A program made the position numbers and the translations under genes. A stretch of 64,000 bases of DNA, from positions 22,169,501 to 22,233,500 of the forward strand of contig CM027382.1 of NCBI GenBank assembly GCA_015680905.1, read 5' to 3'. Below the pieces are notes generated by a model, which was given only the letters and a program-made list of their open reading frames with translations, was not told where the DNA came from and ran no database searches. Shown here piece after piece: positions 1-14,741 of the stretch (position 1 is its first letter; every line of letters starts with the position of its first letter). The stretch comes from Coptis chinensis. Its lineage: Eukaryota; Streptophyta; Magnoliopsida; Ranunculales; Ranunculaceae.

Positions 1-747
1 GAGGAGGTGTTTTCGACATTGTGGACAAAATTAACGGACAGACCTTATGTGGGTGTAGTACTATCACTGCTTGCCAGGTTAGTATCCATTACTCTTCTGT
101 GGGGTACTTCATTAAGTTTTACAGACAGTCGATGCAAGTATGCAACACTACGGAGGGACAACAATTAAAGAGATAAGAGAGGGTCCATACAAATTAAGTG
201 GTTTGTAGCAACTATTTCTAGGCCTCTTATTCCTATTTGTATTAGAGATTACTGTATCCATGCATCTAGGTTCTGCTCTTTCCTTCTTTTGGATGAGTAA
301 GTTTAATTGCACAATTACATGACCAGGAGGGACTTTTTTCCTTTGTGATACTAGTTAAGCACATCTTTTTAAGTCTCAGATCTCCTCATTGAATAACACC
401 ATTAATTTTTCTTTTAAATCTGTTTTCTCGTTTTCTTCTTTCGCTAGATTTGTGGCCTCTTTAAGGACAGTAAATTTTATTTCCTCTGTAAACATGGATT
501 CTCTCTAATGGTTAATGGGTGTCCACTCTGTGATAGTAACTTCCTTGACGGCATTTTGTAGGCTGGAGCACCACTTGGAAATTGCAAGAATGATACTGCA
601 CCTGCTAGAAATCCAACTGCAATGACAAGTAATAGTGGCAGTTTCTCTGGATCAGTACAGTTATCAGGATCTGCCTCAGTAGCCTATTGTCTGAATCTGT
701 TGGTTCTCAACCTGTTTGCTCTTTTATCAGTGGTGTTGTTTCTATGA
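1..747 (+). CDS. 3' end of a probable GPI-anchored secreted protein gene, 5' truncated by the window edge
   Basis: Two exons can be read: 3-77 (the upstream border is outside the window) and 562-747, joined in phase 0 by an intron with a GT donor at 78 and a TAG acceptor ending at 561. The joined frame is open to a TGA at 745-747. The first exon encodes a Cys-containing stretch with the motif CGCSTITAC, and the second starts GAPLGNCKND. The tail is Ser/Gly/Thr-rich, then has about 20 hydrophobic residues (LNLLVLNLFALLSVVLFL) and ends at once. A small-residue omega region followed by a terminal hydrophobic segment is the usual layout of a GPI-anchor signal, so a cell-surface location is inferred. 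I do not recognise the family. A plain C-terminal membrane anchor is the alternative. Confidence 0.5.
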
Positions 748-2062
748 CTTATCCTTCTTTCCATCATCTGGGTAGATGGTTAGTGAATTACTATGTTAGA
801 TAGGGTTCTATAGTATCTTCACATTAGATCCGGTTGACTTTATATCAACCTTGGCCGGTTGACTTCATCACATAGCATTCAGAGTTCAAAAATCTGAAGT
901 TATGAATTGGATTGAAGGTGGTACTTATTTAAAGTTTACAGCGAAGACTCAAGGTTTCAAGTGCATGGGACTATGAGATATATAGGTAGATACTGTTAAT
1001 GAGAGACAACGAAGTTTTCAACATCTTGAGTGCTGACTCAGGTGACTCAGGTATGATTTGTTTTGAACTCTTAGAACGGCAACGTTTGTGTTGTGATTTT
1101 GGTAAAATTATACCGTTTCTAGTATGGCATGTAAATTGTCTAAAGTTTTTTTCCTGAACAAGTTTATGGGAAGTGGTTTATATGTGAAATATTTTGCATC
1201 CATTATTCTTTAATTGACAGATTGAGTTTCTCTCTATTTTATCTTTCTCGATTTCAATTTTCTTTCCGACCTGAGATTACTCACAATCATCTAGTTGATT
1301 CATATTTATTCCCATTGTTTAGGTCCCATTATTTGTGATTATATCGATTTCCTGTATTGATTGGTCTGTTTTTGTTTCCAAACGTTTCTTGTTTGGTATA
1401 TACTTAAATGTTAAATCATGTGCATCATAATAGCACAAGTTATTAATAAATTATGTTATTGAAACTCAAATATTCAAGCCGGTAATCTATGGTTATTTGT
1501 CACTTGAATAAGAATTTGCCATGTTGGACCCTGTTTGTCCCAAGTTTTATCCGGACATACAGGATTGAGTATCTTGTATATTCGATATGTAGATCAGTGT
1601 CTAGGTCACTTTCTATCTATTTTGAACATTGACATTGTGTGTGTCTCTTTTTTCAATAGCTTAAGAGGTATGGATGCCAGGTTACTAAACCAGTGGCATT
1701 TCATCAGTTTCAATTGCCCATTGTGCTAAACTGTGAACCTACTAGGTTTGTAGAAGGTTGAGTTTATTCCTCACCCATGTACGTAAAGTTCATTTTATGT
1801 GCAAATTAACTATCTCAAATGACTACATAATTGGAACAACGAATGCGAGAGTCATAACCGAGTTTTTTTTCTTCTGGAGTTTGCTTTCATATCCAATGAG
1901 TATTTTCTGCTGATCAGACTATTGATATAGCATATTAGTTGTTATAGTTGTTATGTCTTCTCATGTTTATAGAGGTTAAGAGTGATTCCATATTAGGGTT
2001 ACATTTTCTAATAAACACTAGAAGAACATATGTCCCACTGGATGTGGAAAATCATCGTGTGA
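748..2062. other. Intergenic stretch, no gene recognised
   Basis: AT-rich sequence downstream of the GPI-type gene. Only short chance reading frames are present, and none has a recognisable motif or splice structure. The first few hundred bases probably include the 3' UTR and terminator region of the upstream gene, but no decisive poly(A) signal stands out. Confidence 0.5.
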
Positions 2063-8194: not shown

Positions 8195-9245
8195 TTGATA
8201 ACACTGAATGGGTATTGATGTTGTGGCCAAGAAGATTGAAAAGGACCAAGAGCTGTTGAGGTTAAGGATTTGGCTGAGAGAGTTAATGGGAGAGGGATAG
8301 ATTATGTGAAGAAGAGTGGGGATGAGCTGAGTAGGATGTTGTTGGGGAAGGAGAATGGTATTCTGATGAGAAATGAGGCTGTGTTTAAGAATGAGCTTGA
8401 GAAATGGCAAGATGAGAATAACTTTGGGATTACTAGTGAGGAAGCTATGGATTTGACTGTTGATGCTTGGGTTTATCATGAGGTTGGAATGGAGTATCTG
8501 AATCTCATTATCAAGGTGCATGGTATTGTCTTGGTTATGTTAGTTAGTATGGTAGGTTATGTTGATCTGGAATGATGATGAATCGATTTGATGGTTGGAA
8601 ATGGTAGCAGGTGGTGTAATTTCATTGGTTTGATGACGTGTAAAGTAGGATTCTCTGTAACCTGCAAATGAACAGCACACACAGTCCGCACCACTTTTCT
8701 TGCTGCCCAAGGTGCCAAGGAAACTGCAGTACACTGGTTCTGGCACCATATTCTGTGGTCCATGGACTCTAAGTCTGGTTCTCTTTGATCAGTTGATCAT
8801 ATCATGGAGACGTGGACTCGTGGTGTGTATTTCAAAATTTCAAGCTAACACAATCCCCACTTTCACATTGCTTGAATTGATCTACTGGATGAGAAAATTA
8901 AATAGAACCTCGCAAGGGATTAGAAAGAATTTCAGAACTCAAATTATTATAAGCACTTGTTACTTGGACCTAAAGGACATTGAATTAGGCGTTTGTGGCT
9001 TTTGATGAGGGATGACAGTTTGCTTGGCATTGCACTAGCTTACTTGATCGCCAATTGCGCACTGTGAGCAAAATTCTCCCACTTAATTAAATGTATAAGG
9101 TTTTTGCATCCAACAATGAATAATGAAAAAGCACAGATGTGAGGAATGGGATTTTTATGTATAAATGATGTATTGACACTTGAAACTTAGGTGATGACCA
9201 GAATGAAGCCTGAGGTGCGCAGTCTACTTGCAGAGATAATTGTAA

Positions 9246-9335
9246 GAGTTTTTCTACGGCAACACACATTATGAGCCGAATGGGCAAACACAATGACGTG
9301 GCAAGGGAAACTCACGTGCCTTAATATAGTCTTTT
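9246..9335 (+). repeat. MULE left terminal inverted repeat
   Basis: Imperfect inverted match to 14648-14732. Shared blocks in order are tttttcta, gcaacaca, gaactga or gagccga, acaca, gatgtggca or gacgtggca, and ctcacgtgcc or ttcacgtgcc. Identity is roughly 70 percent by eye. A long T tract follows at 9331-9351. Confidence 0.8.
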
Positions 9336-9529
9336 TTTTTTTTTTTTTTTTTATCTTTATTTGTTTTAGACATTTAAGTCACTTAGTTTATGAAAAATGT
9401 TCAACTTCTCTTCTCTCCACTCTCCAGTACATGAGAGCAAAATGTCTTCTCTCTCTCTAGCTAGTTCTCACCATCAATGTCGTTAGTTGTCGAACCCATT
9501 CCTTCTTGCTTTTCTATGATCGATAAGAA

Positions 9530-12290
9530 ATGGATAATGAACCTCTTTGCTTTGACTTGAATAGATATCATGATGATGTTGAAGGAGATGCAATGGAAAA
9601 TGTAGAATTTCGGAGGGAAAATGAAAGAGATGAAAATGATGAAGTTACTCAAGAGACCTTGAATAAACCAGAAGTGGGAACGACATTTGACATTGTTGAT
9701 ATATTGGAGTACTACCAAAAATACGGCAATGAAAAAGGATTTCCCGTGAAGATTAGGAGTTCAAGAAAATATGATAATGGTGTAACAAGATATATTACTT
9801 TGACGTGTTGTCTAGAGGGCAAAGCAAGGAGTAAAGGTCAGAATGTGTTCAAAACGCAACCCATATGCAATACTAACTGCAATGCTAAAATCTGTGTTGT
9901 ACGTTCTGTGTCCTGATAGAAAATGGAAACTTAATACCGTTTTTCTTGATCACAATCATGTGGTGAGCCCGGAAAAAGCACGATATTTTAAGTAAAAGAG
10001 AGAAGTACCTCCATCGGCAAAAAGGCAGCTTGTGTTACATGATCAATCAGGTATTCAAACAAGTAAAAGTTATTATTCAATATTGTTAAAAAAGAAAGAC
10101 ACTTGAGACTTGGGTATGGGGATGCCGAAGCTATCCAAAATTACTTTATCAAAATGCATGAAAACAATAGTAATTTCTTCTCTTTGATGGATTTTGGTGA
10201 TGATGGTAGATTGAGAAATTTATTCTGGGCAGATGCAAGGAGCAGGGCGGCATATGAGGAGTTTGGTGATGCTATAACGTTTGACACAACATATTTGACA
10301 AACAAGTATGACATGCCTTTTGCCCTTTTTGTTGGGGTGAATCACCATGGTCATTCAATATTGTTTGGATGTGGCTTGATTTCAAATGAGGATACAAAGA
10401 CTTTTACTTGGTAATTTTCCAAGTGGCTTTCATGTATGAAAAGTCGTTCCCCAAATGCAATAATAACTAATCAAGATAGAGCCATGAAGAATGCTATTGA
10501 AATTGTCTTTCCGAAGACAACAAGACATAGATGGCGTTTGTGGCACATTATGAAAAAAATTCCTGAGAAGTTGAAGGGGTATAAGGAATATCAGTCAATT
10601 AAGAGTTGTATGAAGTATGAAGTCTGTTGTTTATGAATCTTTAACTACTGCTGGGTTTGAAAACGAGTTGGATTAAGTTCGTTGAGAAATTCAGCCTTGA
10701 GAAAAATGAGTGATTGAGTGGTTTATTTACTGAGCGACATCATTGGGTTCCTGTTTTTGTAAAGGATACATTTTGGGCGGGGATGTCTACCACTCAAAGA
10801 AGTAAGAGCATGAATGTGTTCTTCAATGGGTATGTTAACTCAAAGACTACTTTAAAGTAGTTTGTCGAATAGTACGAGAATGCTTTGCGAACAAAGGTGG
10901 AAAAGGAGAAGAAAGCTGACTCAGATACTTTTAGAGCTTCTATTCTTTGTATAACTAAGAACAAGATTGAGGAACAATTCCAAAAATGTTACACCAATGA
11001 GAAATTTTTGGAGGTTCAAGATGAGATGAAGGGTAAGCTTTATTGTATTTTGTCACGCATTGAGGAAAATGGAGACATTGAGAGGTATGAAGTTAAAGAG
11101 AACTTGGTTGGAGTAAAACAGCAAGATGTCACTTTTACTGTTATGTTTAACCTTGTTGATTGTGACGTTAAGTGCATTTGTTGCTTATTTGAATTTCGAG
11201 GGATCTTATGCTGGCATTGTTTAACAGTCCTAATTTACAAAAAGTTTGAAATTGTGCCAGAAAAATATATCATTCGCCGATGGAGAAAAGATGTGGATAG
11301 ATGTCACACAAAGATTAAAATTATTTACTCAGATTGGACTATGAATCCTGAGAGTGAGCATCGTGATAGATTGTGTAATGCATTTTATAAGAGGGTAGAG
11401 TTGGCTATAGAAAGTGAAGATACTACTCAAATGGCAATGGGTTGGATTGAATCATTTATTAATGAGTTGAAGAACAATTATGGAAAAAATGCAAATAGTC
11501 AACTAACTTCATCAACTAGGAGAGCTATTGATTGTAATAGCAAAGGAAGTGCTACCCTTCTTGATCCGCTCTCGGTTCATCGTAAAGGTTGACCATGCAG
11601 CAATAGGATTGTAGGAAGAACGGAGAAATATGTGCAGCAACAACATAAGAAACAAAACAGTAAAAAGGTGCGTAAACTAGTCAATTATGTTATACTTTTG
11701 TTCTATGTATTAATTTTGTATATTATGAGCTATGCTTCTTATTAGTTCATTTTATTTATAATTACTAAAACCGTAGGATGATGAAAATGCATCTCAACTC
11801 CCTCATGGTAGGTTCAGAAGGCATTTCTAGCCATTTTCAGTTCTTTGCATGTGAATTTGATCACTTTAGTTCTATGTAAATTCAATTATTAAAAAAATTA
11901 AAGTAAGTTTGTTTTTAAGTGATGTTTTTGTATTTATTAATCTTCCAAGAGAAAGAAATCGAATCTCATATCCCTCATTGTTCACAAGATGTATCTAGTT
12001 GTCTCGATGCAAATCACGATAAGTTATCTATCCAATTTGATGCTTCCAGAGGGATACCTAGCCAGTTTGCTGTTTCGCATAATAATTTTCCAATGCCATC
12101 ATCTATGATCAATCAAAATTATGTCGAGGTATCATTTGTTACTAATATGATTGTTTTGTTTTGTGTACTTCATTTAATCAATTTTATTTAGTAACAAGCA
12201 ATGTCATTCTCACAATGTTGTAGGCTCATGATTACACATTTTGGAAGGGGTTTTTGAATGAGATGAATAATGATCCAAACTTATGAATTG
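9530..12290 (+). pseudogene. FAR1/FRS-type MULE transposase, frame-broken
   Basis: Pieces appear in the order expected for a FAR1-related transposase. At 9530-9916 is an acidic N-terminus and a FAR1 DNA-binding region with ITLTCCLEGKARSK and a Cys-containing NTNCNAKICV. At 10103-10414 the MULE transposase core includes LFWADARSRAAYEEFGDAI and TFDTTYLTNKYDMPFA, with the conserved Asp in FDTTY. At 10436-10636 is IITNQDRAMKNAI, the second Asp region, and RHRWRLWHI. At 10885-11592 a SWIM zinc finger can be read (CICCLFEFRGILCWHCL). Several stops and frame changes separate these pieces. The host homologues FHY3 and FAR1 are transcription factors domesticated from this family. Here the terminal repeats and TSD show a transposon copy rather than a host gene. 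Exon-like material continues to about 12290. Confidence 0.88.
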
Positions 12291-12354
12291 ATGAGTATTT
12301 TGAACCAAACCCAACACCATCACTGTTAAAAAGAATATTGAGCAAAAGAAGAAT

Positions 12355-12693
12355 ATGGGTGTGTTTGTACTAGTACTAGTACTACTACTTCTTTTGGGTG
12401 GCCAGCTCTTTATGCTTCTGTTTTATTTGGTGCTATTTTTGGTTTTTTTTTCTATGGCTGCTGCTCTTGCTATTGCTATACCTGCTACTGTTGTAACTTG
12501 GATCACTGTTTTAGTACTACTTGCTTTTGCTGGTAAGCCTAGAAGAGCACTTGTTCTTGAAGGAAGGAAAATTACTAAAGATATTGTTGGGTTTGTGATC
12601 AAGATTGTTATTAAAGAGGGTAATATTGTTGTAGCTATTTGTGTTGTGATTGGGTATTTTGCTCTTACTGGTAGAAAGAGTAGAGATGATTGA
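12355..12693 (+). CDS. Small multi-pass membrane protein, intact 112-aa ORF inside the MULE
   Basis: A single uninterrupted frame of 112 codons. It has an N-terminal hydrophobic segment (residues about 3-33), a second hydrophobic region (about 34-60, AIAIPATVVTWITVLVLLAF), a basic loop with GKPRRALVLEGRKITKDIVGF, a third hydrophobic helix (about 89-106, NIVVAICVVIGYFAL) and a short basic-acidic tail RKSRDD. It resembles small conserved plant transmembrane proteins of unknown function that share the GKPRR..LVLEGRKIT pattern (from memory, unverified). It lies between the dead transposase and the right end of the MULE, so capture of a host gene is a reasonable inference. Its intact frame contrasts with the broken transposase next to it. 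The start codon lies just before a short gtacta repeat that encodes part of the first hydrophobic segment. Confidence 0.6.
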   Translation: MGVFVLVLVLLLLLGGQLFMLLFYLVLFLVFFSMAAALAIAIPATVVTWITVLVLLAFAGKPRRALVLEGRKITKDIVGFVIKIVIKEGNIVVAICVVIGYFALTGRKSRDD

Positions 12694-13177
12694 TGGTGTT
12701 AGTTTGGTTTTAACTAATTTTAAAATTAACTTTCTTGTTAGATGTATGTTTCTTGTTAGATGGGTAAAGGCTGATCATGTGGGGGGCACAACACAAATGT
12801 TGGTAAAAAAAAAAGGGTGGGTTTGGAGTCAATCAAAAAACGAGTGGTAACCATTTAAGTGTTGGTGGTATATATCAATTAACCTTTTTTACATATATGT
12901 CAAAAATTAAAAATCACAAAACATACCGACTTACTGGTGACTTAGTCAGGAAATATTGAAACAAGGCTATCTGTAATTGCTCACTGCGAAGGGCTCCTGC
13001 CATAGTTCAGAGCACCTGCTGCAAATAGCTCTAAACTTGAACACTAAGAATATTCAAGTGAGGGAAAATTCAAAAGAGTTAACTAATTGTAAAGAGAATT
13101 AACTCGACTTCAAGGACAAGACACAAGAAACCAAATACATGCCATCAATACTAATTTGGCATTTGTTTCAACTCCAA
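12694..13177. other. Non-coding MULE interior
   Basis: AT-rich sequence between the small membrane-protein ORF and the tRNA-like stretch, with no recognisable coding or structural signal. It probably includes the 3' flank of the captured ORF. Confidence 0.4.
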
Positions 13178-13272
13178 CGATCTTAGTGGATTTGAACCAC
13201 CATCTCTTGGGATATGTATTTGTGTGTGCCGCATATTGATCCCAAGCGCTTTGCCTGTTAAGCTAAAGATCC
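13178..13272 (-). pseudogene. tRNA-like sequence (tRNA pseudogene or SINE head)
   Basis: On the minus strand the sequence can fold like a tRNA. A 7-bp acceptor stem (ggatctt with aagatcg) has one mismatch. A 4-bp D stem (gctt/aagc) encloses a loop with agg, and a T arm carries the canonical loop ttcaaat closed by ggtgg/ccact. Internal pol III promoter-like boxes are visible: box A tagcttaacagg and box B ggttcaaatcc. The anticodon arm is abnormal, with an 8-bp perfect stem (cttgggat/atcccaag) closed by a loop of about 25 bases instead of 7. That rules out an ordinary tRNA. A SINE-type tRNA-derived head or a decayed tRNA fits better. Confidence 0.4.
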
Positions 13273-13780
13273 ATTTAGCAATCATTGTTTAAATCACATG
13301 TTCAATTCCAAGAATATCAGTGTAAATTGTCTCAAGTAGAAACATACACATAAGGACTGCCATCAACAAGCTTTTCAAAGAACTTTAGAAGAACTAGTAA
13401 CAACATTTTCCACTTATTCCTTGGAATGATAAAATGAACAAGTTTTTAAAATTATGCACAATTAGTATAAAGGAAATTCAAGTAGCAGTAGCTTAACAAG
13501 ATACTCTATGAGCAGCATTGTTAACTCTCAACACTAACAAATATAAAAGTAAGAACTTAAAGAGCATATGTAAAATACATCAAGATGGGCATAATAACCT
13601 TCAAATTTGGAGAGGTAACTCCAATTAGATGGGCGAAGAGCTGAAAGGGGCGTTTAGCCTCCCGAGCGTACATGAGAAGATCATCATCATGACTGGGCTG
13701 CAAGAAGTTGTTATTAGAAAAGTATAATGCCTCATCAACAGAGATGAAAGACTTGTAATGGAAGGCTGCTGCGGCGAGAT

Positions 13781-14073
13781 ATGCATTAGGCTCTTGAGCC
13801 ATTGTTGTCACTCACCATATGTATTCCATGCCCCTTTATCCATATCTAGCTACTGACTATGGTACATAACTTTCGTTGTTCACGCATCACATGTGGATCG
13901 GTGGATTTCTCATAGTTGGTGCTGATGCAGCCATTTTTATGGTAAGAGACTATGATCCAACTACTCGATACAATGATCTCTTAGATCGTGTACTTAGGCA
14001 CCGCGACACAATCATATCACATCTGAACTGGGCATGCATTTTTCTAGGCTTTCAAAGTTTTGGTTTGTATACA
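13781..14073 (+). pseudogene. psaA: Fragment of plastid psaA (photosystem I P700 apoprotein A1) in nuclear DNA
   Basis: The plus strand encodes recognisable PsaA segments: HHMYSM near 13813, YPYLATDYGT near 13839, then from 13882 [31 protein letters not shown] and DRVLRHR..IISHLNW. The match is lost shortly after SFGLY near 14070. Differences from a working gene include stop codons in the ALGS and DYGT regions and a small deletion that shortens the Ala-rich segment before AIFMVRD. It is a nuclear copy of plastid DNA (NUPT), about 290 bp, covering part of one of the eleven membrane helices and its loops. It lies inside the MULE, either captured by the element or inserted later. It cannot make a photosystem protein. 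Confidence 0.9.
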
Positions 14074-14647
14074 AATAGCCTACAATGACAATCAAATAAT
14101 CTACAAAGAAGAGAGGATAGGAGGAAATCAGTCAAACAAAAACTCACATTAAATTAGATAATCGCCTAGCGGCTAGCCTTCATTGGACTAGGCGAGGTAC
14201 CATTAGCTCCTCTCATCTCAACTCACATTGATCTACAACCGACACAAACAATTAATTAATACAATAAAAGAAACCCCATCAACTTTCAATTATCAATTCC
14301 AAACTTACAAATTCAAATTTACCTCAACTACAAGCCAAAGATCGAAATAAATCACAAAATAAACCAAATTAATTGTGGATTAATTGTACCTGAACTACAT
14401 ATCAATGGGAAGTAACAAGGGGATAGCAAGGGCAGCAACAATAGAGAAGAATTGGTGATATGATGACTGATTGTTGGAGAGAGCGAAATTGAGAGTGATT
14501 CCTCTTTCGGTCCTTGGCCGGGTTCTCTTTTGGAAAGGAAAGAAACACAAAAAAAAAAAAAAGAAACGCACGTTTTATTTTAAGGAAAGAAACACAAAAA
14601 AAAGAAAAAAAAAAAAAAAAATAAGGAAAAGAGATAGTAAAAGAGTA

Positions 14648-14732
14648 AAGACTAAAGGGCACGTGAACTCAAGTGCCACATCAGTGTGTTCACAAGTTTC
14701 AGTTCATTTTTTGTGTTGCTATAGAAAAATTG
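14648..14732 (-). repeat. MULE right terminal inverted repeat
   Basis: Inverted partner of 9246-9335. The outer 20 bases read caatttttctatagcaacac on the minus strand, followed inward by the shared gtggca and cacgtgcc blocks. It is directly followed by the TSD copy at 14733-14741. Confidence 0.8.
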
Positions 14733-14741
14733 TAATTGTAA

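Follow-up and report, generated by a model that had tools for sequence, protein, structure and literature searches.

A FAR1-type MULE of Coptis chinensis and the host-gene fragment, plastid psaA piece and tRNA-like module in its four copies

The element and its closest described relatives

Pack-MULEs, reportedly the subject of Jiang et al. 2004, are in their strict and typical form without transposase sequence, and the uptake of DNA is usually explained by faulty gap repair where a MULE has been broken. Capture by transposase-coding MULEs has also been described. In the part of PMC2528002 that deals with capture, MULE families of grapevine carry captured sequence (ULP domains) downstream of the transposase, KI-MULE/Kaonashi elements of Arabidopsis are transposase-coding MULEs with captured sequence that are described as being without terminal inverted repeats, and PIF elements hold captured sequence common to several copies. 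A section of PMC3276141 presents maize Mu elements with fused fragments, and according to a passage in PMC13317346, captured fragments are mostly non-functional.

We analyzed a window of 64,000 nucleotides from Coptis chinensis (GCA_015680905.1, contig CM027382.1, positions 22,169,501 to 22,233,500 of the forward strand). It contains a MULE at 9246-14732 that has an exact 9-bp target-site duplication, TAATTGTAA, at both sides (left, 9237..9245; right, 14733..14741; unstranded), in agreement with the exact borders of the original prediction. Matching terminal repeats of about 85 bp had also been proposed. Inverted ends of ~80-90 bp are present at 9246..9323 (left, + strand, the first 77-91 bp) and 14650..14732 (right, - strand), but they are imperfect and gapped. 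A genome search with the left end gave 39 scored matches besides the window's own (best 40 of 71 candidates), and these best matches include five inverted pairs with a spacing of 0.65-2.3 kb. Two elements, L076 (~0.7 kb) and L077 (~2.3 kb), have the same inverted ends and their own 9-bp duplications, TTGTCGTAA and TTTACTAAT, respectively. The word TAATTGTAA also occurs once inside the window element, at 13084.

Between the ends lie the remains of a transposase on the + strand. The FAR1 DNA-binding domain (9530..9913; PF03101, E 1.8e-6), the first half of the MULE domain (10067..10411; PF10551, E 3.3e-15), its second half (10415..10633; E 1.3e-10) and a SWIM zinc finger (10873..11589; PF04434, E 1.3e-4) were found on four separate open stretches of 129, 115, 73 and 239 codons (lengths counted as plain open frames). 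FAR1, MULE and SWIM all pass the Pfam cut-offs, which confirms the broken FAR1-type transposase noted earlier. Its transposase is dead, and the element is a FAR1-type MULE that we take to be of the Jittery/Hop kind. Its ~9-bp duplication, terminal inverted repeats and FAR1/MULE/SWIM transposase are those of a MULE, and it is not autonomous because the transposase frame is not intact. With a host-gene fragment inside and a donor identified at 96%, it belongs to the transduplicating MULEs or Pack-MULEs in the wider sense. It differs from typical Pack-MULEs in keeping transposase remains, which places it outside the strict, transposase-free class.

Like the grapevine MULEs and KI-MULEs as they appear in part of PMC2528002, the window element combines a transposase with host cargo downstream of it and occurs in a family. 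In contrast to the grapevine MULEs in that same part, its cargo is a broken membrane-protein gene fragment with psaA, with no ULP domain. The combination of a coding transposase and cargo, which had been considered less usual, is thus already in print (PMC2528002, in the part on capture). The element also resembles the Pack-MULEs of rice and maize in its inverted ends, 9-bp duplications and fragments from different places. As in a NUPT, plastid DNA is present (a 286-bp psaA piece); the difference is that here the piece has been multiplied by a transposon. Word searches of the open-access literature returned no description that we recognized of organelle DNA inside a MULE.

Four copies with the same cargo

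We searched the 936-Mb assembly (116 contigs) with the whole element and found three further near-full copies, on C1, C3 and C4, with the same cargo. Identity of the window element to these is 94-95% in the main block and 91-94% in the left one. All cargo pieces are present in 4/4 copies and their order is identical. Among the four copies, identity is 94.4-98.1% for the transposase, 96.3-97.8% for the gene fragment, 96.8-97.7% for the tRNA module and 95.1-95.9% for psaA. This similarity across the pieces indicates that the cargo moved with the element. The range is wider in 12753-13017 (88.5-98.1%). Near the element ends identity is 89.4-100%, with a top value that comes from 103 columns only and with C4 figures at the right end that derive from a sequence trimmed at that end.

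The copies differ in their state of preservation. In C3 both ends are present, together with a separate 9-bp duplication, ATGACAAAA. Neither C1, which lies within a poly-T tract, nor C4 offers a usable duplication; both copies are incomplete or split. The first 122 bases of C1 are displaced, and a left end that matches is found ~53 kb further along and equally oriented, consistent with a large nested insertion. For C4, no sequence past ~14434 was found within the 1.5 kb read beyond, nor was a right end. At ~10078, 58 bp of the transposase are missing from the window copy only and are present in the other three. The two longest transposase frames have 284 and 486 codons in C1 and 246 and 544 in C3, both still interrupted, and the C4 transposase is more fragmented than either. 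We also found an 85%-alike relative at C9:17231167, for which the ~3 kb read past the transposase contained no cargo match and no right end was found.

The plastid psaA piece of the original prediction (286 bp, 13786..14071, + strand) matches solved PsaA chains with a phmmer E of 9e-39 and lies inside the MULE in all four copies. The window's piece contains in-frame stops and has lost 6 bp. Outside the four copies, the nuclear assembly contains eight full 286-bp matches of 86-92% and several partial ones, and these are plastid DNA in the nuclear assembly. Compared with the C5 plastid insert, the four copies have five differences in common, some of which belong to the C5 insert itself, and 4-5 private differences each. 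The psaA uptake is older than the spread of the four copies. Nearby, a coding-like stretch at 13560-13811 (- strand) had no Pfam or PDB match, and we read the part of it that starts with 'MAQEP' as antisense to psaA. A 51-54 bp piece (13601..13654, presumably - strand) recurs at three other places with 96-98% identity and is possibly a further captured exon.

The host-gene fragment, its donor and the 112-codon frame

The captured host-gene fragment (12290..12752, + strand) extends from donor codon 3 into the 3' UTR. The donor was found in the same genome at C9:47670557-47671060(-), as one uninterrupted 168-codon frame that is 96% identical to the cargo and is the only full-length match among the 21 matches of a genome protein search. 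The alternatives of cargo confined to one site or of a fragment with no parental gene are at odds with the four copies and this donor. Two matches of 47%, at C4:84385386 and C9:34154771, suggest a small gene family; a Pfam scan of the 168-codon donor gave nothing at E up to 0.1. The first two codons of the donor are missing from 4/4 copies, and all four have a 98-bp internal deletion at ~12366, just after GTGTGTTT, which is frameshifting because 98 is no multiple of three. We also considered that the gap between the donor matches might be an intron and the cargo a retrocopy, and rejected this idea because the donor has coding sequence there, so that the gap is a deletion in the cargo. Over 449 columns compared with the donor, six changes are common to all four copies, each copy has 4-7 of its own, and a further 4 columns differ in two or three of the copies. 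From the shared and private counts, the interval from uptake to spread was not very different from the time since spread.

The original prediction had described the ORF at 12355..12693 (+ strand) as an intact, full-length membrane protein of 112 codons. This is contradicted by the donor, which has 168 codons, of which the start and 98 bp were lost, and whose frame the ORF follows only in part. The ATG of this ATG-to-stop frame, which is open only in the window copy, sits in a different frame of the donor. The ORF consists of ~30 codons off the donor frame followed by ~82 within it, and the last 79 codons run from the donor's internal Met. The donor frame is restored by an extra T in a T run that is found in the window copy only, at a point in the run that is arbitrary. 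Read from the same ATG, the frame has 112 codons in the window, 48 in C4, 46 in C1 and <40 in C3. Translated in the donor's frame from its internal Met, C1 reaches a stop after 54 codons and C3 is frameshifted by a 10-bp deletion; in C4, 81 codons of the donor frame remain open from a later ATG.

A Ka/Ks-type comparison with the donor revealed no visible constraint. In the donor frame, distinct changes relative to the donor amount to 26 nonsynonymous and 3 synonymous, against a neutral expectation of ~2.7 to 1; the counts are small, and a few of them, located where the deletion joins or in the T run, are possibly alignment effects. This ratio gives no sign of purifying selection. For the 112-codon protein, Pfam gave nothing at E up to 1 and solved structures gave nothing significant (best E 0.72), and the stop-to-stop version of 129 codons had two Pfam matches far under the cut-off. 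Judged from the sequence, the 112-codon ORF appears to be a chance open frame, an accident private to the window copy. It does not qualify as a functional captured gene, since the donor frame is neither kept nor under purifying selection.

The same donor gene was apparently captured twice, each time by another repeat family. At nine further places the match is confined to ORF bases 115-228 (±1 base), at 92-97% over 114 bp. At the three loci read (L006-L008), this 114-bp donor piece adjoins a serine hydroxymethyltransferase (SHMT) fragment, with a match of 6e-16 that was scanned for L006 only. One site separates the donor from the four MULE copies, and L006-L008 carry the donor's base (3/3). 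From this one diagnostic site, which is thin evidence, the second repeat family probably took its 114 bp from the donor separately.

The tRNA-like module and the history of the cargo

The tRNA-like stretch predicted beside the ORF is real (13177..13272, - strand; Rfam RF00005, 44.5 bits), but it is a dispersed repeat and not cargo specific to the element. Its stems fold, and its enlarged anticodon arm has a loop of 31 bases compared to 7 in the model. ARAGORN in default mode found no tRNA in it. When introns as long as 200 bases were permitted, the program proposed a tRNA-Met with a 22-nt intron, which we judged unconvincing; its anticodons for the family conflict between modes and between copies. 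A 111-bp query gave 40 scored matches (best 40 of 123 candidates), the four copies included, and the Rfam tRNA score was passed by 7/8 loci (not L036), 2/3 (not L050) and 9/10 (not L071). Some members, such as L064 and L072, have little in common beyond the tRNA core, and L063 and L066 are alike over 385 bp. The stretch is a member of a dispersed tRNA-like family, which is perhaps a SINE head.

The surrounding module (13018..13587, - strand) has whole or partial matches of 77-82% at 13 places outside the four copies. At C7 (L039 and L041), the frames next to the module carry MULE and SWIM domains and have only 27-41% protein identity to the window-family transposase, and the C7 module DNA is ~83% identical to the window module outside the tRNA core. 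Such a distant FAR1-type transposase beside alike module DNA means that the module moved between lineages or was separately taken up. L032 and L049 contain a stretch whose DNA resembles that of the C-terminal region at C7; this stretch itself had no Pfam match, is absent at L048, and in L032 has a mitochondrial-carrier fragment (PF00153, 5e-13) beside it. An SFT2-like exon in L039 was considered and dropped for want of Pfam support. Identity was higher in the core than in its flanks, with 85/90 versus 379/458 for L032 (Fisher p 0.004), 84/90 versus 372/457 for L033 (p 0.005), 85/90 versus 371/458 for L038 (p 0.001) and 82/90 versus 305/369 for L039 (p 0.05), four tests that are not independent because the loci are related.

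Alongside the observed borders, shared cargo, donor, shared deletion and frame loss in the sister copies, we hold with high confidence that the MULE spread the host-gene, psaA and tRNA-like cargo as a unit, and that the cargo was pseudogenic before the copies separated. In this reading, an old FAR1-type MULE acquired DNA in the stretch that separates the tail of the transposase from the right end, namely part of a host gene for a small membrane protein, a short length of plastid psaA and the repeat module with its tRNA-like sequence, likely as separate uptakes in the common ancestor; we infer both the mechanism and the order of these uptakes. The element, cargo included, then reached at least four sites, with transposase presumably supplied by itself or by relatives. 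With its start lost and the frameshifting deletion of 98 bp in place, the cargo was already a pseudogene at copy separation, and the four copies have drifted since without visible constraint. That host fragment, psaA and tRNA module are instead independent later insertions into one MULE copy is barely credible when 4/4 copies hold every piece in one order. The psaA region does differ in spacing, with 187 bp in the related module L032 and 698 bp in the window, which indicates that psaA and its neighbors were added to such a module sometime.

It is equally hard to credit that selection maintains in the element a functional, full-length gene for a small membrane protein. The 112-codon ATG-to-stop frame of the window copy has hydrophobic stretches, its last 79 codons are in the donor frame, and C4 keeps that frame over 81 codons; however, the donor has 168 codons, its start and 98 bp are lost in 4/4 copies, the ORF begins with ~30 out-of-frame codons, the donor frame is broken in C1 and C3 as well, and nonsynonymous changes outnumber synonymous ones by 26 to 3. 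That the cargo serves as a source of RNA acting on the donor gene seems very unlikely to us. The fragment is still ~96% identical to the donor, and passages in PMC2528002 and PMC13317346 discuss a regulatory role of transcribed captured fragments, but the gene fragment is in the sense direction relative to the transposase and there is no sign of selection. More broadly, FAR1-type MULEs of this plant might have a recurrent acceptor slot, from transposase tail to tRNA-like module, with lineage-specific fillings and a module that is exchanged and kept. The filling would be the membrane-protein gene piece with psaA in the window and the mitochondrial-carrier piece in the L032 family, and the module, which is more alike between lineages than its own flanks are, would have been exchanged between MULEs. 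We regard this idea as unlikely and put it forward tentatively; if true, the module would have been kept for a putative role, such as that of an internal start for pol III or of a site of recombination.

In conclusion, the window element is a well-resolved case of known MULE fragment capture, with a cargo combination that is particular but of a kind that is not new, and nothing here alters existing knowledge of MULEs. An open frame inside one transposon copy can be a private frame accident. With the donor, four daughter copies and their shared scars at hand, much of the order of events can be read.

Sequences flanking the plastid fragment

In the stretches on either side of the plastid psaA fragment (window 13588-13785 and 14072-14330), we observed that 51-54 bp recur at three other genomic places with 96-98% identity, that window 14105-14258 resembles two places on contig C4 at 78-79%, and that ~60 bp at window 14271-14330 resemble eight places at 92-96%. 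These matched pieces are perhaps further captured pieces or repeats.

The split C1 copy

In the MULE copy on contig C1, the left end lies ~53 kb away from the remainder in the same orientation (G000:C1:65847176 and C1:65900451-65900539), as if large nested insertions had divided the copy.

A dispersed tRNA-like family

The tRNA-like sequences form a dispersed family (window 13177-13272; loci L063, L064, L066, L068, L072 and others), with members both within MULE-like repeats and outside them. The stems are paired and, in the copies displayed, the anticodon loop has 23-31 bases, compared to the usual 7. Close to the related module at L032, a mitochondrial-carrier gene fragment (631-966, minus strand) sits in a repeat family alignable across up to ~2.7 kb.

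Donor-gene sequence in a second repeat family

We also observed 114 bp of the MULE's donor gene in another repeat family, at L006, L007, L008 and six more loci (for example, G000:C5:77120618-77120731). The three loci that were read, L006-L008, align across ~2.4 kb, and a serine hydroxymethyltransferase fragment adjoins the 114 bp in this family. The L006-L008 family seems to have captured the donor gene separately from the MULE.
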